Shown here: piece by piece, positions 30,701 to 64,000 of the stretch
Position numbering within the stretch: position 1 is the first letter of the stretch
Layout: every line of letters starts with the position of its first letter
Origin: Sycon ciliatum
Lineage: Eukaryota > Porifera > Calcarea > Leucosolenida > Sycettidae
DNA length: 64,000 nucleotides
NCBI RefSeq assembly: GCF_964019385.1
Contig: NC_088647.1
Span: forward strand, 17,960,728 to 18,024,727
Direction: 5' to 3'
The notes under the pieces: model-generated
What the model saw: the letters and a program-made list of their open reading frames with translations, nothing else
What the model was told of the DNA's origin: nothing
The model's database searches: none
Position numbers and translations under genes: made by a program

Positions 30701-33663
30701 ACCAGTGACAGTAGAACTTAGCAACAAGTGGAAGAGTCACCGAGCAAGGATCCTTCACTAGCTCACTCTCTTGAGATGAGATCGCATCGCAGACAACTCG
30801 CGGGTGAACGTGCAAGATGGTTAATGCGATAAAACAGCAAACAACTCGTCCGACCGCGATTAAATTGTGATAGCTTCCGAGATCAGTAAATACAGTATTG
30901 CGCCAAAGCATGGCCCGCGGTCCTACTTTGCCTACGTTACGTCGTTACCTATCATTACAGCCATACATGTAGGTGGCCACATTAAAAAAAAGAAGAGCGA
31001 ATGCCATTGTGTTGTCACCTGTAAAGTACTCCGGTGACTGTACTGAAAGGTAGGTGTCGACATTTCCGGGACTTGAGGTAGACACACTGAAGAACCGTCA
31101 CCAGATCCTCTAATCCTGAGCTGCTGCAGCAGCAGTAGCAGTAGCAGCACAGTATTCATGTGACTTCAAACAGTCTTGTACTGAACGCTCTGGTATCACA
31201 CTGGCAATAGAGTCACTCGCTGAACGCTCTGGCATCACACTGGCAATAGAGTCACTCGCTTAACTCCACACTCAAGTTCCAGGTATACAAGTCATAGTGG
31301 CATCAAGTATTATCAGTTCTCCATGTTTGAAGTGGCCGGACATTTGGCGGGCAATGGTGCAAGTGTGAGAGAGGAGCTTGTACTAGCGGGTACAGACACA
31401 GATATCTCAACAGCAGCAGCAGCAGCACTCTACGATAGTCCCAATGTCAATGCAATTCCCCAGTACGTACTGGGAATGCTGCGGGTGATCCGGGCAGGCA
31501 CTCTTATCCCTGTCACACCTGCACGACAGTTCACTGGCCGTCTCACCACCGGATGAGTGGCATTCGCAGCGGTTTCACTCTATCAGCGACACCATCATCG
31601 GACGACGTCCTGGACCCTGAGCGGAGAGTGGCGGAGAGGAGTTGCGGCCCCGAGATTCGAGGAGGCACTTCAGCGATCTCAGTTTGACAAGTGACACACA
31701 ATGCGAGTTCACGGTCTCACCCTGGATTGCCTCGTGCTCGTGGTCTCTGCAAGCCAATCATTAGGCCATATTTTCGTGGTGGGACACTAACCACATTAAG
31801 CCCCATTACACCGTCCAGCATGATACATTCCTGACATCTGTTTCCGAAATGAAATTCTTAGACGGGCCGTATCTCTGCGTTCTGGCTATCCGGTTTGCAG
31901 AATAATGAAATTGATAGAAACCTAGAGACGTGAGAAGGAAGCCTATGTCGCGAACACGAGGTTTGTTACTCAAGTGCCTCTCCTCCTCAGGTCTTTCCCC
32001 CTTTCTCTAGCCTCAGCTTGACGCTACGCTGGAAGGCGCATTCTCTGGTGCTTCGATTTCATTCAACTGGCCCTTCGCATTCATTCCATTACTACCTCCC
32101 GGGACCGGCTGGATAGGCAGGCTTGAGCTGCCTTACCAAGTTAAAAGACAAGGCGCTATGACCACCTGCTATCTCGCCTCACTGATGGTCGCATTACGTT
32201 TGTTTTATCTTTTCCTGTCTCAGCCTCTCACACATTGCTCGTTCCGATTTGGCCCAGCAGGTGCATGGCTCATAGCGTTTCTCTCGCCACAAATCGACAA
32301 AATTGGCCACAATCTGTCGGGAAATCTATTGTAATTGTCGGTGCATGCCTCGCCAACGTTTGATCCCCAGCCAGACATACTTTGCTCTCCTATATATAGT
32401 GGCCCACCCGATGAAGCGACTGGGTCCGATAGAATACGCGTATACGGCATGCATTCACTGCTTTGTCACGCACTCCAAGTCCTAAAGACCTGAACTGTCC
32501 CTTGAGTACGGATGCTGTTTCCTCGCCCCCCCCCCCAAACACTAATGATAGCACTCCAACAATAATACTATTATTTATGAAACAAACACAATGTTATTAA
32601 AGCCCGGATGTTGAGCCAATAGTATTCAAGTAAAGAGACCGGGCCAATATGTTACGAGTTATGACAAACAGTCCACCAAGGTAACGAGATAATACTAGTA
32701 TACAGTCGGATAGTCAGTTTTGCGCCTTGTTGTCGCGCTATCTGGCTGTATTATGATCTCGTTACCTTGGTGGACTGTTTGTCATAACTCGTAACGTATT
32801 GGTTCTTTCTCTTCACAATGTTATTGTGTTTTGTTTGAGACTATTTTTCGACCTCAATATCCGCCTATCGAACGTTAACATAAGCAAGCGTGCCTCATTA
32901 TTATTTCGCTCTGATCTGATTATGGCGCATAACTCGGATCAGTAGGGTAGTTCAACCATGCACATCTGCATCTACTCATAAACACAAACATACTCCCAGA
33001 CGCATTCTCCTCCTCCCTTCTTTTTCCCCTATAACCATCCATTTTTTCACTTCCCTCCATAATTCGCTGCCTTGTTATTGAGCATCTCTGCTCGTTTGGT
33101 TCTGCGAATTCAAATAAAACACAACAAACAAAATGCTACTGTCCCTTACCTGTGTGGCATCTTTTAATTCGCTTCTCTCCTGCCGACGGGTAGCAGACGA
33201 GGTCCCGGTCGCACGGTCGTCGCTTACCCTGGCAGCGCTGCCCGTCGAACTTGACACAGATTCTGCAGCAGCCGCACCGGTCCAGCTCCAGACGACCGTG
33301 GCACTTCTCCGGTGCGCGGCGCGCCGATCCTCCCGGACACTTGGTCGTGTTGCATGGTGAACAGTCGGCAGGGTAGGCATGGGAGTGTCCGGTGGCAGCT
33401 GCTGAGCTGGTGGTCAGACGTCCCGCCAGCGCGGAGTAATTATCCGCTTGCTGATCTGACTGCTCGGCTGATACCCACTCTCCACCCTCGTCCAACACCC
33501 AATCTCGCGCCATCCGTCCATCCTCATGTGACTCTTCACTGCCTTCCAGTATCGATCTCGCATAGCAGAGCGTTGGAAGCAGTAGAAGGTGTAATGCCGC
33601 CATCATCAACAGAACACTTCGTACACCTTGCACGCGTCCATTTCGTGGCGCCATTGTATTCAT
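23379..33663 (-). CDS. Secreted IGFBP / VWC-like / Kunitz / NTR-like multidomain protein (3 exons)
   Basis: Exons on the minus strand: 33150-33663, 25803-26279 and 23379-23791. Both introns are phase 1 with good GT-AG signals, and the total is 1,404 nt (467 aa). Exon 1 begins MNTMAPRNG, has a hydrophobic signal core (VLLMMAALHLLLLPTLC), then an IGFBP-type cysteine module ending in CGCCRICVKFDGQRC. Exon 2 has a VWC-like module (CRQCQCSPDGRQLC) and a Kunitz-like module (YTYSAVDNRCVMHW through CRAEC). Exon 3 reads like the core of an NTR/TIMP-like domain (LYTLKIRNVYRGPC, YLIGYEMS). Such modules act outside the cell in growth-factor binding and protease inhibition; WFIKKN and papilin proteins combine some of them. 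The expected N-terminal cysteines of the NTR module are not visible, so a small exon between 23792 and 25802 may be missing here. The Kunitz P1 region is atypical, so inhibitory activity is uncertain. Confidence 0.75.
24626..24778. repeat. (TG)n minisatellite with TCACTGTG spacers
   Basis: GTGTGT runs of variable length are separated by five to six TCACTGTG units. Intron 2 of the secreted-protein gene. Confidence 0.9.
31182..31259. repeat. Tandem 39-bp duplication
   Basis: Two adjoining 39-bp units starting TGAACGCTCTGG, which differ at one base (T to C at the thirteenth position). Confidence 0.9.
32599..32814. mobile_element. Long-inverted-repeat MITE with 11-bp target duplication
   Basis: ACAATGTTATT occurs at 32588-32598 and 32815-32825 and flanks the element exactly. 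Inside, GTTACGAGTTATGACAAAC and the following 25 bp recur inverted at about 32751-32796. The left end (AAAGCCCGGATGTTGAGCC) resembles that of the copies at 50096 and 51492 (TGAAACTCGGGTATTGAGCC). Long inverted arms with an 11-bp duplication suggest a Mutator-like origin. Confidence 0.75.
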
Positions 33664-38282
<4,619 letters not shown>

Positions 38283-44473: not shown

Positions 44474-47281
44474 TTAATATGGGTAGAGGCTGGGCAAGTC
44501 GAGAGCCGTGGCTAGAGCTTTAAATGTCTGCCAATCACCTTCCGTACGGACTGCAACTGGGAGAGCTTTCCACAGAATGCTGCTAACAAACTGAATTGAA
44601 CGATGTCCAGCAGGACCAGGGAGGAACGGAACTCTCAGCAGGCTTGACACTTGACCCCGTGTCGTCCTCAGCTGAGGTGTGGCAGGGTCGTTGATCGGCA
44701 CGAACAGATTCTTTAACAGGGGACTTGTCTTGTCATTTAAACATTTGAAAACGAAGATGGCAAGCTTCTGGAAGAGAAGCTGTGGCAAGCTTGGTACACC
44801 CAGTAGCTCCAGAAGGGGGGCAGTCGGGACCAGAGTCCTTTGCTGCAGGGTCGCTCTGACACCGGATTTTGACAGGCGGTGGAGTTTATCCAGGAGCTGC
44901 TTGGAAAGACTGGAGAAGAAACAGTTGGATCCATAGGACAGATGAGCCTGTATCATGCTGACATACCAGACTTGGCGTGCTCTTAGGCTCAGGGACCTGC
45001 CGTGTCGCCATAGCTGTCCAATTACTGGCCCGATCTTGCGTGTTACATGGCTGATATGTGGCTGCCAGGAGAGGTCATTGTCGATTACAACACCCAGGTA
45101 TTTCGCAGATGTTGTTGCTTCCAGGGGTTGTCCTCGACAACGTACATGTTCTTGAACATCAGCACCGCCTCTTGGCTTTACAAACAGAACTTGGGTTTTC
45201 TGGGCATTCAGAAGTAGGCCGATGTCATCTAGCCACTTGGCGAGGTTGGTCACTGCAGACGACAGAGACTCGCAGACTTGCTTGGGACACGCGTTGGAGC
45301 AATCGAGAGCGATGTCATCAGCGAATTCCTGATCTGCCACATCCGGAGGCATCGTTGACTTGACGTCAGCAGTGTAAATTACGAACAGGAGTGGGCCTAA
45401 GACACTGCCCTGCGGAACACCGCGAGAGCAAGGAACAGTCCCTGACAACTGATCCTGCAATTTGATCTGCTGTGTCCGGCCAGACAGGTAACTGCAGAAC
45501 CAGTTGAGTGCAGTTCCCGAGATACCTAGCTTAAACAGTTCAGTAATGAGTCGCTCATGCCTGACGCGGTCAAAGGCCTTTGACATGTCGACAAACACGA
45601 TGCCGGTATACTTGCGCTCTGCCCGTGCCATTTGCCATCGATCAACAGCATACGTTAAGGCATCTTCTGTGGAGTGAAGCTTTCGGTAGGCGAACTGAGT
45701 AGGCGGAAGAAGTTGCTTGGAGTCCAAGTACTGCGTGATCTGATTTTTTACAAATGCTTCTGTGATGCGGGAGATAACTGGGAGCAGTGACACAGGGCGG
45801 TAGTTCTTTGGCAAAGTTGGGTCTCCACTCTTGAAGAGCGGACTGACGTGGGACAACTTGAAGGACAGGGGGAACTCACCGGAGGACAGGGATATATTAA
45901 TGATGCGTGTAAGTGTGGGGGCAATGGTTGGATAACACTTTTGCAGGATGATGCTTGGAACTTGGTCACTGCCTGTTGCCTTGAAAGGGTTGACAGATTT
46001 CAAACTGCTTGCCACATCCTCGACTGTCACTACACTGAAGTCGGTAAAGGCCCCTTCCGCCATTGGACCAGAGGGAGAACAGAGCTGAGGAGGACGCTGG
46101 GGATCATGGACAACGTCACCAAACAGCTTGCTAAGATCCGATATGGGTACTTGAGCAGTGTGCGATTGTTTCTTCCGGCCAACCACAGTATTGATGACTG
46201 ACCAAAGTTTACGTTGGTCAGAAGTCTGGCACTGCTGGATGAAATACGTGTTCTTCAGGCTCCTGTCCAGCTTCCTGGCCTTGGCACGAGCAGTGCGGTG
46301 TTGACTGCGGAGATCATCATTGCAGCGGTTCTTCATGAGCAGTCGATGGAGTCTGTCTCGCTCCCGTACGCAGGCCACAAGTTCATCTGTTACCCACGGG
46401 CAGGGACGTCTATCCCGATTTCGCCTCATCCGCACGGGTGCATGCTTATCCAATGTTGACACTATGGAGGCGATGAAAGATGATGCAAGGGTGTTGACAT
46501 CATCTATGGCGAGCAGAGAGGCCTGCTCTACACTGAGATCGCTGTTGAAGGTGTCCCAGTTTATCTTATGGATGCGGCGTGTAGGTCTGTAGCTGGAAGT
46601 ACGGCCTGGTGCAAACCCTGCCACAGAGAGATTCCCAAGTACTGCAAAGTGGTCACTAATGTCTAGGTAGGCTATCTCACAAGGTCCCGTCAGCGGGCAA
46701 GTTGATAGGAAGAGATCAATGATTGACTCAGTAAGGGTGGTGGCACGTGTTGGTGAAGACACATAATTGGTCATACCAAATTTGTTAAACAAGTCAGTTA
46801 CTCGTATGGCCATGGGTGACTGGTTCATTTTCATATCAACGTTGAAATCACCCAGCATGACAGTTGCCAGAACCTTCTTTCCTGGTGCATGAACTGATGC
46901 GTCTAGGTTGGACTCCAGGGAGGTCCAGAATGCTACAGGTTTGTCTGGTGGACGATAACAGCATCCAACCAGCACTATGCCACCGGAAACGCTAACTTCT
47001 ATCCACAGCAGCTCTAAGTCAGTCTCCAAGTCAGTGCGTCTTCGCGCAAGAACAGATTCATGGCAGTATATCCCAACACCACCACCACGTTGCTGCAATC
47101 TATCCTTCCGATGTAGCTTGAAATGTGGGATAGTAAGTTCACTGTCCAAGATATCTGGAGTGAGCCAAGTCTCAGCCATACCAAAGACATGAATGCCTCT
47201 GTTTGACAAGAACTTTTGCACTTCGGCTGTCTTGCGCCTGATACTACATACATTCAAGAAGGCAGTGTGCAGCATGGTCAT
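44474..47281 (-). CDS. LINE ORF2: AP endonuclease and reverse transcriptase, 935 aa
   Basis: The N-terminal endonuclease has FLNVCSI, the catalytic Glu in MAETWL, YRPP, LGDFNVD and the final ISDH. The reverse transcriptase follows at about residues 450-740: NYRPVSLLPVISR, VDMSKAFDRV, GVPQGSVLGPLLF, FADD at about residue 650 and YLGVVID. The product cuts the target and copies the element RNA there. The start codon ATG at 47281-47279 shares its A with the ORF1 stop (TGATG), so translation by re-initiation is likely. The C-terminal part has no zinc finger. The motif order fits the CR1/L2/Jockey group; the exact clade needs a tree. Confidence 0.93.
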   Translation of the reverse strand: MTMLHTAFLNVCSIRRKTAEVQKFLSNRGIHVFGMAETWLTPDILDSELTIPHFKLHRKDRLQQRGGGVGIYCHESVLARRRTDLETDLELLWIEVSVSGGIVLVGCCYRPPDKPVAFWTSLESNLDASVHAPGKKVLATVMLGDFNVDMKMNQSPMAIRVTDLFNKFGMTNYVSSPTRATTLTESIIDLFLSTCPLTGPCEIAYLDISDHFAVLGNLSVAGFAPGRTSSYRPTRRIHKINWDTFNSDLSVEQASLLAIDDVNTLASSFIASIVSTLDKHAPVRMRRNRDRRPCPWVTDELVACVRERDRLHRLLMKNRCNDDLRSQHRTARAKARKLDRSLKNTYFIQQCQTSDQRKLWSVINTVVGRKKQSHTAQVPISDLSKLFGDVVHDPQRPPQLCSPSGPMAEGAFTDFSVVTVEDVASSLKSVNPFKATGSDQVPSIILQKCYPTIAPTLTRIINISLSSGEFPLSFKLSHVSPLFKSGDPTLPKNYRPVSLLPVISRITEAFVKNQITQYLDSKQLLPPTQFAYRKLHSTEDALTYAVDRWQMARAERKYTGIVFVDMSKAFDRVRHERLITELFKLGISGTALNWFCSYLSGRTQQIKLQDQLSGTVPCSRGVPQGSVLGPLLFVIYTADVKSTMPPDVADQEFADDIALDCSNACPKQVCESLSSAVTNLAKWLDDIGLLLNAQKTQVLFVKPRGGADVQEHVRCRGQPLEATTSAKYLGVVIDNDLSWQPHISHVTRKIGPVIGQLWRHGRSLSLRARQVWYVSMIQAHLSYGSNCFFSSLSKQLLDKLHRLSKSGVRATLQQRTLVPTAPLLELLGVPSLPQLLFQKLAIFVFKCLNDKTSPLLKNLFVPINDPATPQLRTTRGQVSSLLRVPFLPGPAGHRSIQFVSSILWKALPVAVRTEGDWQTFKALATALDLPSLYPY

Positions 47282-48345
47282 CAGCAGGCATGGTTGATTT
47301 CAGAGCCATCGCTGACTGAGGGCGCGTGCACATTTGTTTCCACTTCCGAAAGGGATGCAGAGTTTGCTTGCGTGTCGTCACATGCTGTGGTTTCTGTGGT
47401 ATCATCACTGACATCAGAGGCAGAGTACTTGTCGAAATTCCACTGTCTGGAATAGAGTGGTCTGGGCCAGAAGCGACGATCCAACAGCGTCTTGCTGCAC
47501 GATGCGTGGACTACCAGTCTCGCAGACGACGACTTCTGCTTCTGAAAAACTTTACAGTCGAGAATTTTAATAGGGGGAGTCTTCAACTCCGACGAGCGAC
47601 ACTCCACGAAGCGTGCTAGCTGCTCCGGTGAGGCATCGCGCAGCAGATTGCCAACAAACACAACACTTTTCTTGACAGGTTTCCTGGCTGTCACCAAACG
47701 CCAGGCAGCATTTTCACTGTCGTCATCGACGTCTGGCAAATTGGCCTCACTGACTGCACTGGCTGCATTAGCTGAAGTTTGAATGTTGGTCTTAGTCTTG
47801 GAGTTCGTACTAGTAGTTTGAACGTTCGACGTGACACCCACGCGTTGGTGATGATCCAGGTCACTGAGGTCATGTCCTGGTACGGTAGGTCCGCTCCCGA
47901 CTGGAATGTGACACGTGGCCGCAGCATCCTGCTGGGCCGGACCAGATGAAGTCAGTTGTAGATCTACTACGGTATTCGGGTTGGTTTCGGACTCAACGGT
48001 TGGGCAGTTAGTAGCATGGCGCCTCTTTCTCTGCGACTTGCTCTGAGCCTGAGAATCTCCAACCGTAATGGCGGAACTTCCTGAACTTGGAATGTTCGGT
48101 GCGCTTGATCTGGATAGCTCCTGAACGGTCCTAGATAGCTGGTCGATATGGCTTATCAGCCTTTTCTCACGGTCTGCAGCAGCACTTCTTTCGGCATCAA
48201 GCATATCCATTATCACCGCCAGAGCGTTGTGGAAATCGCGGCAGCAGTTCGACGTGGGGAAACGATCATCTGGGACATCGCATGGCTGTTCGTGCTCATC
48301 GCTCTCTACTGCGGCCATGGTCGTGGAATCCCTGTTTGCAGACAT
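47281..48345 (-). CDS. LINE ORF1: coiled coil and RRM-like RNA-binding protein, 354 aa
   Basis: The N-terminus has a short heptad-like helix (about residues 45-80, DREKRLISHIDQL). A Ser/Thr-rich linker follows, then a C-terminal RRM-like domain (SVVFVGNLLRDASPEQLARF ... LLDRRFWPRPLYSRQW), the layout of ORF1 proteins in CR1/Jockey-like LINEs. It should bind the element RNA and multimerise. No CCHC knuckle is seen. It overlaps ORF2 by one base. Confidence 0.85.
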   Translation of the reverse strand: MSANRDSTTMAAVESDEHEQPCDVPDDRFPTSNCCRDFHNALAVIMDMLDAERSAAADREKRLISHIDQLSRTVQELSRSSAPNIPSSGSSAITVGDSQAQSKSQRKRRHATNCPTVESETNPNTVVDLQLTSSGPAQQDAAATCHIPVGSGPTVPGHDLSDLDHHQRVGVTSNVQTTSTNSKTKTNIQTSANAASAVSEANLPDVDDDSENAAWRLVTARKPVKKSVVFVGNLLRDASPEQLARFVECRSSELKTPPIKILDCKVFQKQKSSSARLVVHASCSKTLLDRRFWPRPLYSRQWNFDKYSASDVSDDTTETTACDDTQANSASLSEVETNVHAPSVSDGSEINHAC

Positions 48346-48454
48346 GCTTGCAACAAAAAATCCGGGTCAGAGACCCCAAAAGTAACCTAAAAACGATACA
48401 AAAACGGGAGCTGAAAAACATGCATCCTACTCTATTTCAATCGGGTTTTCATTG

Positions 48455-52670: not shown

Positions 52671-52875
52671 TTTACTGAGCAGTCAGCGAGTGCGACAAAG
52701 TGGCACAAAACTGACAAGAAGACTAAGTAGTGAGACATTCAACGACCTGACACCTACATGTAGTCCCAACACTCCTCCGAGGCGTAAACCAAGAACCTTC
52801 CAAGTTACTTGGAAGGCTCAGGTAAGGAAAGGTCCAAGAGGGGAAGGAATCTCTACGCTTCTTACATGTGCTGGT

Positions 52876-54230
52876 GAGAATATCTCTTTGCGGAAAAAGT
52901 GGCAACGTATGCGCCATAGAGCAATGGGCTTCCACTCATTCTCACATGTATCGACCCGCAGCACTTCTCTTGCACTCAGTCAGTGGAGCCACAGGAGCGA
53001 CGTCACCGTCCTGCTCCCTAGCTCTGATGATTGTTTTTTTTGGGGGGGGGGGGGGGTATTATTATGGTATAGCGGTGGGCAGTTTGATGCGTGGGTGTGT
53101 GACTGCACTGTATGGGTACAGGGCGTTTCACGAATTGTCTACGCACGCTGAGACGGACGTGATGTACCACACAGCGTTGGCCCTCGGCCTCCCCGTTCCA
53201 GGTCCACAGGCACCTTTTTCTTGCAGTGCCCCTTGCGAACGATCTATGGCATCAATTTCAACACTTTAGTTTCTTTGGAATCATTGTCTTGGAATGTACA
53301 TGTACACGACTTTGAATTAATCATTTAGACCAGTCAGCTCACTGACACCTGCCAGGTTGATACATGTACATTCACCACGGACATGTACATGGTAAAATAT
53401 GTCCTAGGTTTTCCTTCAGAGTAAACGCATTGTTGTCTATGCACGTCAATGAAATTAGAAGTGCATTCATCCAGCAATCGCTTCTTCGCCAGGTAAAGAT
53501 GACAGGAACAGGGCGCATAGCACGAACACGGTATTGCATACGTGTAGTTCGTATCCGATAATACAAAAAAAACACAAAGAAAGAATTGGTCCCGGGCTAA
53601 CATTGTTAGCAGATCGAGTTCTGGAATAGTTCTCAAACGCTCTGGGGAAAAGCTTATTCATTGAATACAAATTGACGCAATGCCAAAGTAGAGTATAGCT
53701 TCGGTGACCATCTCTAACTTTAACTTCAACTCGATCGCTGCTGCCGGGGCGTTTGTTTCTACTCGTGAAGCTTTCAGTTGAACTTGAAGCCGCATTACGC
53801 CTTGCTTGTTGTCTTTCAAATGTATACACGATCATTACGTCTTGCTTGTTGTCTTTCAAATGTATACACGATCATAACGCCTTGCTGGTCGGTGTTCAAA
53901 TGTATACACGATCATTACGCCTTGCTGGTCGTCTATCAAATGTATACACGATCATTACGCCTTGCTTGTTCGCTAGACTTCATTTATAATCCGATCAGTT
54001 CAGCCTGTAACTCTGAGCTCCACTGATGAGACTTAACAAGGTCGAAACAGTTACATGTACAATGATTATGTAGCTGTCCAGAGATTGAGTAGATGCAGGC
54101 AATCACTAGACACTCGGGGCCACGCCTCTGGCCGTCCCAGGTCGCCAGGAGAGATGTTTAACCATGATTAAAATTACATCCGTGTACTTTCAGAAACCCT
54201 GCGTGGTAATTCAATCAACCTACAATGTAG
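52876..54230. repeat. Left arm of a 4.15-kb inverted repeat
   Basis: Matches 55640-57027 in inverse orientation over the whole length, from GAGAATATCTCTTTGCGG at the outer end to the AGAAACCCTGCGTGGTAATTC region at the inner end. Both arms contain a homopolymer G/C run and a frame starting MKDNKQDVMIVYTFER, so they are true duplicates that have since diverged. Confidence 0.85.
53789..53975. repeat. 40-bp minisatellite, 4-5 copies
   Basis: Units of the type ATTACGCCTTGCTTGTTGTC then TTTCAAATGTATACACGATC. About three units are present in the other arm at 55880-56015, so copy number changed after the arms separated. Confidence 0.85.
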
Positions 54231-55639
54231 GTCGAGGTCGATTTAAGCAAAATATTGCGCACACAAGTACATGTACGTGCATTGTGGTAACAGTCCCCAG
54301 GTAGACCTCACCTGGGTTCAGGTTCTGATTCATAAGCTGTGTGAATACCACTGCCATAGTCTACTGTGTGAATACTATACATAATCTACTAAAGCATTTC
54401 GTACTCCCAACTGCACATACATGTAGTTTTGTCTGCGAAATGCGCTCTCTGAAAGTATACTGAAGAGGCCAATGATGGCCTTTCAGTACATACCAAGCCG
54501 CTGCCAACAGTGGGAGGTGGTTGAGTGGGTGGGACATACCAAGTGTTAGTTCCACAGACCAATAATGTTATTATTCTCTCTGCAGCACTGCTGGGTATGT
54601 GTGCCAGGGGAGCAGAATTATAGAAAATGAGAGCGCATTTGAATGAGGTGTTGAGAGTAGGAGTCAATGAGTTTGTGAATGTGCGTGTGTGTGTGTGGGG
54701 GGGGGGGGGGGGAAGGGGGGGGGGGTGCGTGTGTGCAAGTGTATGTAATGTGTATCTGTGAGTGTGTGTATGTGTATGTGTGTGTGGGTGCTATTTGAAG
54801 TTGTTGTTGTGGATGCAAGAAACCGAGCGCGATAGTGTAGTGGAAGGAGGAGGAAGGGAAGGAAGAAAGTAAGCAGCCACATACGGCCGTTGGAAATTCT
54901 CCGTAAATAGACTAAACGATAAACCACCATTGCCCTATTTTTCAGCATACATTGGTTTCCTTTTTCTTTTTCTTTTTCAGTAATGCAGCAATTCAACCTC
55001 CTCTGATGCATCGATTAGCCCTTTCTCAAAGGTGCTCGACTGCTCGCCCTTTTTTCGCCTTTTTGGCCCTTTTTGGAAAAGCCCGTTTCTTTCGCCCTTT
55101 ATTGGGTTTTTTTGGTGAATATCGCCTTTTTTTTTAGCTTTTTTTAGCTGAAAAGTGCTAAAATCTGTTTGCTCATGCATGCGATCACAGTTTCCGAGTG
55201 CTCGATGGGCCTTGGGCCCTTGGCTTGGCACAAAGCTTTTTTGGAGGCAATATGTTAATGAAGCTTGTACCCGGTGTACACAATGCTGCAAAAAGTGGGA
55301 TTTTTGAACTTCATTTTCCTGTTTTGCCTTTCGTGAACCCATAAATGGAAGAGTGCATATTCATTTCTCAGCTTGGGTTCATATCTGAACATGTATCATA
55401 GCTAGGCTTCACTGAAAAAAGAGCTCTTTTTGCCTGTTTTCACTGAAAAAAAGAGCACTTTTCAGCATATTTTGAGGGACGCGAAAAGCACTAAGTGCGA
55501 ATTAAAAGAGCACCTTTGGGAAAGGGCTAGCATCGATGAGGTATCGATTACTGAAACAGAAGCCAGGACAAATTATGTCAGCACTCAGAACGAACCTCTT
55601 GCTGTTATGGGAACTGTGTGTGATCGTGTTTCAATCCAC
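54231..55639. other. Spacer of the large inverted repeat
   Basis: About 1.4 kb between the arms. It has a G-rich/TG tract at 54685-54785 and a T/C-rich stretch at 55048-55140 with repeated GCCCTTTTT-type words. Frames at 54977-55342 (minus) and 55430-55648 (plus) match nothing I recognise. Confidence 0.5.
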
Positions 55640-57027
55640 CTAGGTTGATGGAATTACCGCACAGGGTTTCTGAAAGTACACGGATATAATTTAATCATCT
55701 CTTCTAGCGACCTGGGACGGCCAGAGGCGTGGCCCCGAGTGTCTAGTGATTGCCTGCATCTACTCAATCTCTGGACAGCTATATGACACATGTTGCTGTT
55801 TCGACCTTGTTAGGTCTCATCAGCGGAGCTCAGAGTGTGTGGCTGAAATGATCAGATTATCAAGTTAATGAAGTCTGGTGAACAAGCAAGGCGTAATGAT
55901 CGTGTATACAATTGAACGACGACAAGCAAGGCGTGATGATCGTGTGTATACAGTTTGAAAGACAACAAGCAAGACGTAATGATCGTGTATACATTTGAAA
56001 GACGACACGCAAGGCGTAATGCGGCTTCAAGTTCAACTGAAAGCTTCACGAGTAGAAACAAGCGCCCAGCAGCGATCGAGTTAAAGTTAAAGTTAGTGAT
56101 GGTCACCGAAGCTATTCTACTTCGGCATTGCGTCAATTTGTATTCAATCAATGAGCTTTTCCCCAGAGCGTTTAAGCACTACCCCAGAATTCGATCTGCT
56201 AACAATGTTACCCCGGGACCAATTCTTTGTTTTTGTATTATCGGTTACGAGAAACACGTATGCAATACCGTATTCGTGCTATGCGCCCTGTTCCTGTCGC
56301 CTTACCTGGCGAAGAAACGATTGCTGGATGAATGCACTTCTAATTTCATTGAATTTCAATGTCGTTGACGCGCATGGAGAACAATGCGTATTCACCGTGG
56401 ACGGTCCCGTACAATGATTAAAACTGCACCCCGTTTACTCTGAAGGAAAACCTAGGACTTATTTATTATGTATGTACTGTATCAGCCTGGCAGGTGTCAG
56501 TGAGCTGACTGGTCTAAATTCCAAGTCATGCACATGTACATTCCAAGACAATGATTCCAAAGAAAACAATGATTTGAAATTGATGCCATAGATCGTTCGC
56601 AAGGGGGCATTGCAAAACAAGGTGTCTGCGGACCTGGAGCGGGGAGGGCCAACGCTGTGTGACACATCACGCCCATGTCAGAGTGCGTAGATGTGAAACG
56701 CTCGGTTACTAAGTAAGTTAACCCATACATTGCAGTCACACACCCACACATCAAACTGCCTACCCCCCCCCCCCCCCCCCCCCTCCGCACACCCCAACAA
56801 AATATCATCATCAGGGAGCAAGACGAAAGTGGTGACGTCGCTCCTGGGGTTCCGCTGATTAATAATTCACGTTGCTGGCTGGACACTGTATCCTGAGAAT
56901 ATCTCTTACTTGCCTTAGTGTTAGTTGAGTGCAAGATAAGTGCTGCGGGTCGATATATGTGAGAATGAGTGGAACCTCATTGCCTTTGGCGCATACCTTT
57001 CCACTTTTGCCGCAAAGAGATATTCTC
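55640..57027. repeat. Right arm of the 4.15-kb inverted repeat
   Basis: Inverted partner of 52876-54230, with scattered small indels and a C19 run at about 56764-56782 mirroring the G run at about 53042. Confidence 0.85.
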
Positions 57028-57056
57028 AAATAGTACCTGCACCCTATGACCTTATC

Positions 57057-57138
<82 letters not shown>

Positions 57139-57426
57139 GTGACCAAGCCGCTTTTACGGGCAACAATATTATGAATATAAAACGCAAGGTATTGTAAGAG
57201 CAATTTTCTGAAAATAATGTTAAAACACGAAATATAACAATGCATTATCACACCGTAGCCACTTTTATGGGCAAATTCCAATACAAGGCAATAAGAAAAC
57301 GAGGATGAAGTTAACCTTTTAACCCAAAGAAAAGACAAAAGATGTCAACAATCGAACTACAAATATAAAAAACAAACATCAGGTCATAAAAACTACTTTA
57401 AAACATAACCAAATGACAGCAAAGCG

Positions 57427-57457
<31 letters not shown>

Positions 57458-60400
57458 GAGAAAAGCCTCTTTTACGGGCAAAGCAAATGTATATCATTAC
57501 AATATGTAAAGTGAACAGGGGAAATCAACACAAAACCAACCGGAAAATGATGAAACACAAAAGCAGTCAAGGAAGTAAATCAATACAAAAACAAGCAATG
57601 AACACAGAATCATCATCATCATTTGAACAGCCTCTTCTACGGGCAAGCAAAAACGCAATACATCAAAATTCAAATAGAATGAAAAAAGAGAGGAAAATGA
57701 ACACAAAGTGCACTGGAACTCAATATAAAAAGGAACGCAAAGTGCAGTTGAACACAATGAGCATGGGGCATGGGGCCACCAATCGGAGAAGACCGGCTCA
57801 TAATGGAAAATAAAAGAACAAACATAAGACACCCGTACACATCAACGTGCTCTAAGGGTATGGCAGCTCGTTAAAAAGCTGTGGCGCTGGCGCTTGTATG
57901 ATGCCCGCGAACCACGTATGCAGGTAATACACCAGCGGAGCAAACACAGCGACAATACAGATCGAAGTTGTCCCATGACTACAGAATAACGTAACTCGGG
58001 ATTTTTCTCAACAACAAGCGATACCAAATTTTTCAAAAAACGAGACCCCTCTGGCCCACACATGCCTGAAGTTGAAAAAACTAACGGTGTAAATGATGCT
58101 CTCTCTACAATATTTACACGGGCACAATATTCTCTCTTTTTGGCCTGTTCATGGGTCTTCAGCTGACGCAGGACGTCTGTACGCGACAGCAGGCTTGCCT
58201 TCGGGTGTGTTACCCGTACATCAAAAAAGGCATCCTGCTGCCGGGTCCAGAAGCCCCGCGCCCTGATATCCAGACGCGCCTCCAAAGACCGGTTCGCAGT
58301 TCGATGTGGTAGTGTTTCTCCTTCGAACGGCTTGAGAAGAGGCTCCTTCTCCACATCTGGTAGTATTTCCCGAATAGCTTCTGACAGAATGTCCCGGATC
58401 TCGTTATGTCTTGCAATTGGGTAACCACCCGCCGGGCAACTCATGGCATGATCTATTGTCATGTCTTGCCCACAAATACAGGAACTGGACACTCCCTCCA
58501 ATGACAAACCATATCGAATACAAACAGCATCACGAAAATCCGATTTGTTCAGGATTGAACTGGGCGTTATGAAAGACGGCATGGAGGATAACCAATTTGA
58601 AACACCCTTCTCACCAGCCGTTTCCAACAAAAGCTGTTGCGCCGGCGGTAGCATGGGGCGCAACTGTGCCACTCTTTCATCCTGTTTCTTTTGCCGCTGC
58701 TGACGTGACTGACGTGCCCGCTGGCGAACATCCCCGATGGCATCAAGGGTAACATCTGCGCCCGAGCCTCCGGCTGCGTCATCCAGGCTAGTGATCCCCG
58801 GCCGTGGTACAGGATGTAGGCGGAAATCATCGGGTAGAGATGACGATAAAATCAACCCGGGAGAATGGCCCCGAACGTTGTGAGGCTGTTCCGCGCCCGC
58901 AACGGTCAGAGGCTGTGTGGAGGACTGGTATGGAGCAGCAGGTGCCTCTTCTGGAGGCGTTAATGTATCTGGCGGTACAATCAGGCGCACGAACGGCTCA
59001 GTGATCTTTGTTGAGGCCGCATACTCCACAGGCGCCAGGGAAGGCAGAATCGGCACAGGAAGACCACCACATCTCGTTGGCAGAGACAGAAGCTCCCGCT
59101 GTGAGCTATTGGGGTCGAACTCATGGCCCAGGAGAGCTGGCAAAAGCTCCGAATCGATAACCTGGCCAGGTACCTGAAGAACCTCAGGGCTGTGCTGTGT
59201 GGCACGGAGATGGTATTGCCACCGGCCAGCCAGACCCTTGGTTAACACCACGTATGCCGCGTGTGGCTGGGTCCTCGCCAGTCCAGCCAGAGACTTGAGT
59301 TCTTGTGCCCAGGAACGCGACTTTGCGAATATACATTCTTCGGTATACCTGGCCGATCCCAGCACACCGCCCAAGTATCGGGCTCCTTCGGCTGATATAG
59401 TCACCCCGGTACCGTCAAACACCTCTCTCGCTCGATCGAGGTGCTCTGGCTTCGTAACGAGGATGGTCTTGGCTGCATTGGCGTGGTAACCATATCCGCG
59501 GCCAGCCTGTTCCAGAGTATCCCAGTACTGTCGGAGCTGCAGGAGTCTATCCGCCGCCGCATCGTCATCTGCATACCAGGACTGGACGACCGACGGGCAA
59601 GCCGCTGCCAGGTGCTTCACCAGAGGTGCTGTGGCAACAGCATACACTGCCATTGCCAATGGGTCCCCTTGGCATGTCCCTTCCTGTGACAATATCTCAC
59701 CGCCACCAGCAACGAAAAGGCGAATTGGCGAGCTGTAGGTGTTGGCAAACACTTTGCCTAGAGCAGGGCAAATGCGGGGAACGTTATGGAGTGCGGCCTG
59801 ACGATTAAGCGAGTTGAATGCATTTGATGCGTCGACCAACAATACTCCTTCCGTATTTGGTCCAGCGAACATGGACGTCATTGCGTGAACTGAGGCTTCG
59901 CAGGCTGATGGAACACCAACACATGTCTGGTGGGGGGCAGTTACGCGGAGGACGTCGTGTTCCGTGATCCTCGCAATAGCTCTGCAGATCAGTCTCCTAT
60001 GCACCTCACCGACCGCGATTGGGCGCACACCTGGTTGTTTGTCGAGTGGAATCAGGCGAGCCGATGTAAACCCCAACATTGATTCTGGCTCCACGGTCAC
60101 CGTGCACAGACATTGTGCGGCAGCAGCCAATGCAGAGCAGAGAGTATCTGAAGCCTTCTTAAAACACGTCAGCATTCTACACCATGCATCAGAATCCAGG
60201 CCGGACGGGCCCGACGATCCGTGCATCCCCCGGCTTAATTTACGAATCAGCTCCGGTGTGATTCTCTGGAACAAGATGTTGTTGGCTTCGGCCGGATCAC
60301 CAGGAAGGAGGACATCTTCGGAAGGCTGAGTCGCGATGGGGTGCTTCTCCAGCAATACCTCACGAACTGTAGCACCTGTGGACGGATTCCCAATTTCATC

Positions 60401-61124
60401 CATTCCCAGAACCCTTCCAGAGGATGCCGGGTCCAGATACCTGATGGCTGAATGGATGCGTCCCGAGAACACCAGCCTGCTGAACTTGACGTCATCCAGT
60501 TCCTCTGGGCGGTCCGGTGCCGTAGGGACACGCCTGGGAAGATGAGCCTGAATGCAGGCACACTCCTCGACTAGTTCCTTGATGGCTCCTCGTTGCCATA
60601 GACCCATACGGCGGCGCAGATGATCCGCCTGATTGCATTGCAGTCTCGAGTCGTGTGGCTGCTGTAGCAGGAGGTGGCAGGCAACTGATACAGCTCTCCA
60701 GGCCACACATCGTATATCTGAGCCATCAGCAAAACAATTAATGAGCCAAGACAATTCCCCAACAAATAGAATGCCAGCCGAGCCATGAGGAACAATGAAT
60801 AGGTTGCGCCTCCACGTGACCACTACCTCATATGCTGCCTTCACCGACTGCACGAAATGGTCCCTTACACTTGCATCCTCCAAGCGCGATGTTGCATTCA
60901 CTGGGCGTTGACTGTCAGCAAGACCAGCCAAGAACAATGTATCACCTCCAGGAGATTCATGCTCTGCCCCGACCGCAGAGATATTGGCAGGAGGTGGTGA
61001 TGTCACATCTATTCCGTGAGGACGATCAGGGGTCGCACTTCGATTGACCGTGGCAAGGTGTGGGGAGCACTCATCACCCTCCTCGCCATTCTCACCAGAG
61101 CCGGAGGCTCTAGAGCCGGAGGCA

Positions 61125-61129
<5 letters not shown>
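57057..61129 (-). mobile_element. Apparently intact LINE with C-terminal restriction-like endonuclease
   Basis: A single long ORF followed by about 700 bp of 3' UTR built of four repeated end modules and closed by (ATG)n. An (ATG)n tract also adjoins the 5' end. A 5' UTR as such is not visible; the ORF opens in or right after the microsatellite. Type: R2/CRE-like layout, with endonuclease after reverse transcriptase. Confidence 0.82.
57135..57650 (-). repeat. Four repeated 3'-UTR end modules
   Basis: On the minus strand TTGCCCGTAAAAGAGGCT-like blocks occur at about 57625-57645, 57460-57480, 57255-57275 and 57148-57168. Three are followed within a few bases by ATGATG runs; the fourth, at 57255, has the decayed form GATAATG. 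Spacing is about 105-205 bp. Confidence 0.75.
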
Positions 61130-61187
<58 letters not shown>

Positions 61188-61252
61188 TTCCACTCCTTCA
61201 TCTTGGGAAATTGTGTTTTGTTTGCCCAAAGAAGTGGCTTAATCATCATCAA
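57842..61252 (-). CDS. LINE protein: reverse transcriptase plus restriction-like endonuclease, up to 1,136 aa
   Basis: The open frame includes a run of about 20 Met codons from the (ATG)n tract. The true start is probably the last of these at 61129-61127 (MNASGSRAS), giving about 1,095 aa. RT motifs are GVRPIAVGEVHRR, LLVDASNAFNSLNR, GTCQGDPLAM and YADDD (about residue 558 of the long frame). A CxC...HxxxxC knuckle (CICGQ...DHAMSC) lies near residue 923. Beyond it LDIRARGFW and AFFDVRV (about residues 990-1005) fit a PD-(D/E)xK-type nuclease. The protein should nick a target and prime reverse transcription there. Similar proteins are common in cnidarian and other invertebrate genomes. The N-terminus has no clear zinc finger, unlike R2. 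Confidence 0.88.
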
Positions 61253-61270
61253 AAAAAAAAAAAAAAAAAA

Positions 61271-61306
<36 letters not shown>
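61130..61306. repeat. (CAT)n tracts and an A-run upstream of the LINE
   Basis: (CAT)n at 61127-61187, unique sequence to 61242, an A24-type run to 61274 and (TCA)n to 61306. The two trinucleotide tracts are in the same register and may have been one target. Confidence 0.9.
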
Positions 61307-61309
<3 letters not shown>

Positions 61310-63715: not shown

Positions 63716-63716
63716 G

Positions 63717-64000
<284 letters not shown>

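Follow-up and report, generated by a model that had tools for sequence, protein, structure and literature searches.

Kibi and Koshi are LINEs of the Tx1 clade with microsatellite targets and an apurinic-type endonuclease, and the R1 clade contains SART1 and TRAS1. These two silkworm lineages occupy one telomeric repeat and enter it in opposite directions, as far as PMC7265360 and PMC4700185 are accessible. Among LINEs with a restriction-like endonuclease (RLE), the accessible text of Kojima and Jurka (2015, PMC4640811) ascribes microsatellite targets to some families of the HERO clade, and that of PMC3774820 describes TAA repeats upstream of Dong together with self-cleavage at the 5' junction. 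Here we describe RLE LINE families of the calcareous sponge Sycon ciliatum, most of whose scored insertions adjoin (ATG)n microsatellites.

A pile-up of inserts in one (ATG)n tract

A preliminary description of the window, by which we mean the whole stretch of 64,000 nucleotides that was analysed, placed a single endonuclease-bearing LINE at 57057-61306, bounded by (ATG)n on both sides, with an ORF that opens in the 5' tract. The interval is not a single element but a pile-up of inserts in one (ATG)n tract, and we read it as four inserts. The limits first proposed were ruled out by where family homology starts and ends in other loci. Matches to the LINE that we call family A begin upstream of window position 61127 and in most copies stop at 57609, immediately after the (ATG)4 that follows the first 3' motif; the rest of the interval belongs to other families. 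The count of ATGATGATGATG was 56, compared with a mean of 0.00 in 100 shuffles.

On the 5' side of the pile-up lies an outer (ATG)n tract of 11 units on the minus strand (61274-61307; 11.3 copies, 100% matches). Adjacent to it, on the plus strand, is the fragmentary 3' end of a LINE with the opposite orientation, family E (61188-61274), which was found as an inverted repeat and carries the motif GCCCAAAGAAGTGGCT at 61224-61239 (+), followed by an A24 run. This inverted end motif was considered as a terminal repeat of the element itself and rejected, since it belongs to another family.

The features that follow all lie on the minus strand. An (ATG)20 tract (61126-61187; 20.7 copies, 100% matches; 20 in-frame Met) marks the 5' truncation junction of a family-A LINE with reverse transcriptase and restriction-like nuclease (61126-57611), delimited by comparison with other loci. 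The truncated ORF (57842-61126) encodes 1094 aa after the Met run and lacks approximately 147 N-terminal residues of the complete ORF. As had been reported, an open frame does run through the tract, with 1136 codons at 57842-61252, and the element is indeed an endonuclease-bearing LINE: a reverse transcriptase domain with a YADD box lies at 59369-60031 (Pfam RVT_1, E 2e-9), and alignment places a CCHC-like knuckle and a C-terminal restriction-like endonuclease (RHNE, ARLD, FFDVR, K-x3-Y) at 58060-58480, with limits that are approximate and drawn by eye. The window ORF opens inside the tract because this copy has lost its 5' UTR and the N-terminal residues. The tract at which this ORF opens is thus a truncation junction, and complete copies start approximately 760 bp further upstream.

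Family A ends at 57611-57644 with the motif GCCCGTAGAAGAGGCT (57629-57644) and an (ATG)4 tail. Beyond it lies a 3'-end fragment of family B (57427-57610; motif at 57464-57479), whose (ATG)10 tail occupies 57427-57457 (10.3 copies, 100% matches). The last insert is a 3'-end fragment of family C (57057-57426), with an internal motif at 57257-57272, an end motif at 57146-57161 and an (ATG)27 tail at 57057-57138 (27.3 copies, 100% matches). The 3' ends of both families consist of the motif GCCC..AAG.GGCT followed by (ATG)n. Family B is found separately in other loci and family C in many places.

Several other features of the window were recorded. A foldback element at 52875-57028, with arms of about 1.35 kb that match at 85-98% in collinear pieces and with termini TGAGAATATCTCTTTGCGG, stops 28 bases short of the (TCA)27 tract. 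A LINE with an apurinic-type endonuclease and reverse transcriptase lies at 44477-48366 on the minus strand (RVT_1, E 7e-37; Exo_endo_phos_2, E 2e-7); its second, upstream ORF has no Pfam match, and (AG)n and (CAA)n arrays are located just downstream of this LINE, at 43.6-44.4 kb. A perfect (GTT)55 microsatellite lies at 63716-63880. Finally, an IGFBP-like ORF at 33139-33729 (minus strand) scored E 3.8e-6, just below the Pfam cut-off.

Complete family-A elements and their protein

At least 119 matches were found in the host assembly (538 Mb), and 30 of them were taken as loci; these counts are lower bounds. Six further loci brought the set to 36, with L027 lying inside L036. Complete family-A copies were identified in L003, L004, L006, L007 and L008. 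They are 98-99% identical to one another and consist of a 5' UTR of approximately 317 bp followed by one uninterrupted ORF of 1236-1244 aa, intact in all five, which opens at the element's own ATG. The N terminus of the protein is a cysteine-rich stretch, MPCCRCQTGRACTRCSCVKAGRVCSDCY, which is among the residues missing from the window copy. Similar stretches are present in family H (L002, L031) and in an opposite-strand family (the first of two in L007), and in all three families the N terminus opens with MPCC.

Like the RLE LINEs (the R2 group in a wide sense), family A has a single ORF with a LINE reverse transcriptase. In the protein alignment, RHNE, ARLD, F/YFDVR and K-x3-Y line up in five rows, which on sequence grounds points to a C-terminal nuclease of the PD-(D/E)XK type. 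These residues were compared with the accessible text of PMC5678591 and correspond to RH, D, D and K-Y; of the published KX2KY motif, the second K is missing here. The knuckle has C, C, H and C in order in 5/5 covering rows, with the spacing CX1CX7HX3C versus the published CX2-3CX7-8HX4C. Pfam detected no nuclease domain in the family-A protein, and a structure model had a mean pLDDT of 31, which makes it unusable as fold evidence. Single-sequence searches of the PDB gave no R2 protein or other convincing match, and the window protein matched nothing there up to E 1. When a seven-row profile was used, the R2 protein 9nl2 was the better of two matches at a whole-sequence E of 0.027, a value that is weak alone; by part, the RT stretch scored E 0.6 and the RHN stretch E 240, in collinear order. 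Searches for relatives in viral contigs and in phages found none.

A scan for HDV-type ribozymes of the sort expected at the 5' end of R4 clade elements and Dong, which divergent ribozymes could escape, found none at E≤1 in L001, L004, L006, L007 and L008. Its two matches were to a microRNA model in L008 and, far below cut-off, to a hammerhead model in the flank of L001. Additionally, a related family in L006, L017 and L025 is 93-96% identical to family A over up to the first 840 bases and about 68% identical beyond, as if the two had exchanged 5' ends.

Junctions, tails and the opposite-strand lineage

To score 5' junctions, one natural copy (L006) was taken as the reference and aligned to all 36 loci, plus-strand pieces of at least 90% identity were kept, and a tract was searched within approximately 15 bases of each 5' boundary. 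This gave 47 rows, of which 42 were scored; the other 5 fell on an assembly gap, a locus edge or a duplicate place. Since a short stretch is missing from the reference at the window row, its 20-unit tract was assigned manually. An (ATG)≥4 tract on the sense strand was present at 32/42 junctions and (CAT)≥4 at 0/42. As background we took eight arbitrarily chosen stretches of 8 kb plus the part of the window that lies outside the locus, 123,600 bases in all, and neither (ATG)≥4 nor (CAT)≥4 occurred there. Neither tract was present at the remaining 10 junctions (L010, L013, L014, L016, L019, L021 twice, the second piece of L022, L023 and L028), several of which look like internal breaks; an interrupted (GAT)5 tract is found 14 bases away from one of the two L021 rows. 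Rows with a complete 5' end had a tract in 9/10 cases, L010 being the exception; among the 9, L006 and L025 are 5' parts of the related family and L036 is cut by the locus edge. The preliminary description had proposed targeting of ATG/CAT microsatellites and had named non-microsatellite 5' flanks in other copies as the observation that would speak against it. Such flanks occur in 10 of the 42 rows, and the proposal holds for the other 32, in a single orientation.

These 42 rows are not all independent, since they include the L031 duplication described below, the related-family rows of L006, L017 and L025, and truncation points common to L002/L005 and to L018/L022. The same applies to the tracts, as 20 of the 32 lie directly behind the 3' end of another insert, 19 of them in the same direction and the window's own behind the inverted family-E fragment. 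Among the 12 that are not behind a recognised 3' end, those of L007, L011 and L012 adjoin an opposite-strand family, and those of L009, L026, L031 (two rows) and L032 come after a repeat ending in CGGCAACGCA. This repeat is present at no fewer than 40 places in the genome, which include candidate empty sites. In five of the fetched loci (GAT)n comes next, and in four of these (L009, L026, L031, L032) a family-A insertion lies behind. The L030 insertion seems to be in an intron of a kinase-like gene, its flanks having been read by eye. With the repeat at both ends of most copies and in a fixed orientation, as in microsatellite-specific LINEs, we consider (ATG)n targeting in fixed orientation to be well supported.

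Identical 5' truncation points were observed in L018 and L022 (reference position 1345), which adjoin different neighbours, and in L002 and L005 (reference position 297). They could reflect re-transposed truncated copies, recombination or duplication. A local duplication of 148 bp of family A, its (TGA)n junction and flank is located at L031:388-760 (reverse-complemented locus).

At the 3' side, the end motif was followed by (ATG)≥3 in 28/29 cases for family A, 9/9 for B, 24/25 for C and 4/5 for F, family F being counted separately from A. The family-A tails range from 3 to 22 units. The common 3' end was reached by 31/45 rows, and these rows have 25 different 5' starts, three of which are locus edges or a gap; a constant 3' end with variable 5' starts is the signature that target-primed reverse transcription predicts. 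In L015, L020, L023 and L026 the tail is only (ATG)4-6 before other sequence follows, so that entry outside long tracts may occur. In L033, six or more truncated copies of families A, B and C follow one another head to tail, separated by (ATG)n. When four 3' ends were folded, an identical small hairpin appeared in 4/4, none of them better than its own shuffles, and since its stem is invariant there is no covariation.

The motif GCCCAAAGAAGTGGCT also occurs on the opposite strand in L002, L004, L006, L008 and L033, and in L004 and L008 the family-E 3' motif is joined to RLE-coding sequence. Nine matches to related opposite-strand RLE LINEs were found in the fetched loci. In the element's own sense, (CAT)n or (TCA)n lies at or no more than 22 bases from the visible 5' boundary in 5/5 cases (L004, L009, L011 twice, L012), a count from which L007, L008 and L034 were left out; the L007 element has an (ATC)17 tract at its start. 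On the 3' side, (TCA/ATC)n follows in 6/6 visible cases, preceded by an A-run in L004, L008 and L034. Because the loci were chosen for family A and the tracts are common to both lineages, an inverted neighbour must show CAT. The observation itself is that every E-like piece is inverted; such pieces are not a free sample of the lineage.

Probable target-primed insertion and comparison with known systems

The loci display flanking tracts, a fixed orientation, a constant 3' and variable 5' end, arrays and a start codon of the element's own. We consider it very probable that the single-ORF LINEs described here, with a restriction-like endonuclease at the C terminus, use target-primed reverse transcription to insert into (ATG)n. 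In the order of events that we infer, the nuclease would nick the strand that carries (CAT)n, and the RNA, through the (AUG)n tail that follows its conserved 3' motif, would pair with the freed repeat; cDNA synthesis would then proceed toward the 5' end, often stopping early. Nicking, annealing and synthesis in this way would leave ATG on the sense strand and the repeat usually on both sides. Subsequent insertions, by this family or its relatives, would then land in the (ATG)n tails of earlier inserts, and because each insert brings its own tail as a landing site, head-to-tail arrays like that of the window would form. We further suggest, tentatively and with some doubt, that (ATG)n/(CAT)n may be a shared, self-renewing habitat, which families A, B, C, F and H enter with ATG as sense and family E and its relatives with CAT. 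Each insertion would provide, in its new tail, a site for the next one, and the elements would in this way multiply their own target and partition it between the strands.

The tracts might instead grow from the short (ATG)n tail of the element, with unequal recombination or gene conversion between tails building the arrays and putting tracts at 5' ends, and no targeted insertion. The tail is indeed intrinsic, with (ATG)≥3 at all but one of 29 family-A 3' ends and a shortest tail of 3 units; furthermore, 20/32 tracts adjoin neighbouring inserts and breakpoints are common to L018/L022 and to L002/L005. However, 12 tracts are not behind a recognised 3' end, complete 5' ends have a tract in 9/10 rows, and the CGGCAACGCA repeat, with its at least 40 places, is followed by (GAT)n in five loci, in four of them with a family-A insertion behind, which makes tail growth an unlikely origin of the pattern. 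We give far less weight to an ordinary, non-specific LINE that lies beside microsatellites by chance: the genome is rich in repeats and 10/42 junctions lack a tract, yet 32/42 have one, in one orientation, versus 0 tracts in 123.6 kb.

It had also been proposed that the microsatellite target supplies the start codon. The (ATG)20 tract of the window does read in frame, and in L002 an (ATG)19 tract does so with family H. Nevertheless, the five complete copies have their own ATG, the MPCC start is common to three families, and the tract is in frame in 7/19 truncated rows where 6.3 are expected by chance, two of the 7 being the L031 duplication. The same family-H 5' end is out of frame in L031. 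On these grounds a target-supplied start codon is rejected as most improbable, and the (ATG)20 run at the front of the window ORF is an accident of truncation.

With targeted insertion by target-primed reverse transcription as the preferred reading, we regard the window families as a new set of RLE LINE families that target (ATG)n and are of a kind already known, and do not claim absence from print: literature titles and abstract openings, a scope that has Repbase and closed-access papers outside it, yielded no (ATG)n-specific LINE. With this set the microsatellite-specific LINEs gain a trinucleotide target. It also makes available numerous natural junctions at a single repeat, whose tracts are shared by several sister families and a lineage on the opposite strand. 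Such comparative material can be used to study how a repeat is read, and its strand chosen, by a restriction-like endonuclease and an N-terminal cysteine-rich domain, and to ask whether a LINE can spread its own target. The (ATG)n microsatellites of this genome may be read as retrotransposon footprints. The most interesting point is the shared, possibly self-seeded and strand-divided use of one repeat.

Kibi and Koshi, which the preliminary description had named as parallels, resemble these families in having a microsatellite target and differ in their Tx1 clade and apurinic-type endonuclease. HERO families share reverse transcriptase and RLE with family A and some of them are said to target microsatellites, and the accessible text of PMC4640811 names no (ATG)n target for HERO; we treat a HERO placement as a lead only. 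Togen likewise has a microsatellite target in that text, but its elements are from fish and the repeat is the dinucleotide (TG)n. Dong, of the R4 clade, is also an RLE LINE, and its 5' junction likewise has a trinucleotide repeat in the accessible text of PMC3774820, so that the families here work in a similar way, but its target is (TAA)n; R4 clade elements and Dong are recognised by a (TAA)n or rDNA target, and the tracts here are (ATG)n. SART1 and TRAS1, as described in the accessible parts of PMC7265360 and PMC4700185, also use one repeat in opposite directions, with the repeat as both target and flank, and differ in having two ORFs, a telomeric repeat and an apurinic-type endonuclease. 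They are a precedent for two lineages that share one repeat and enter it in opposite directions.
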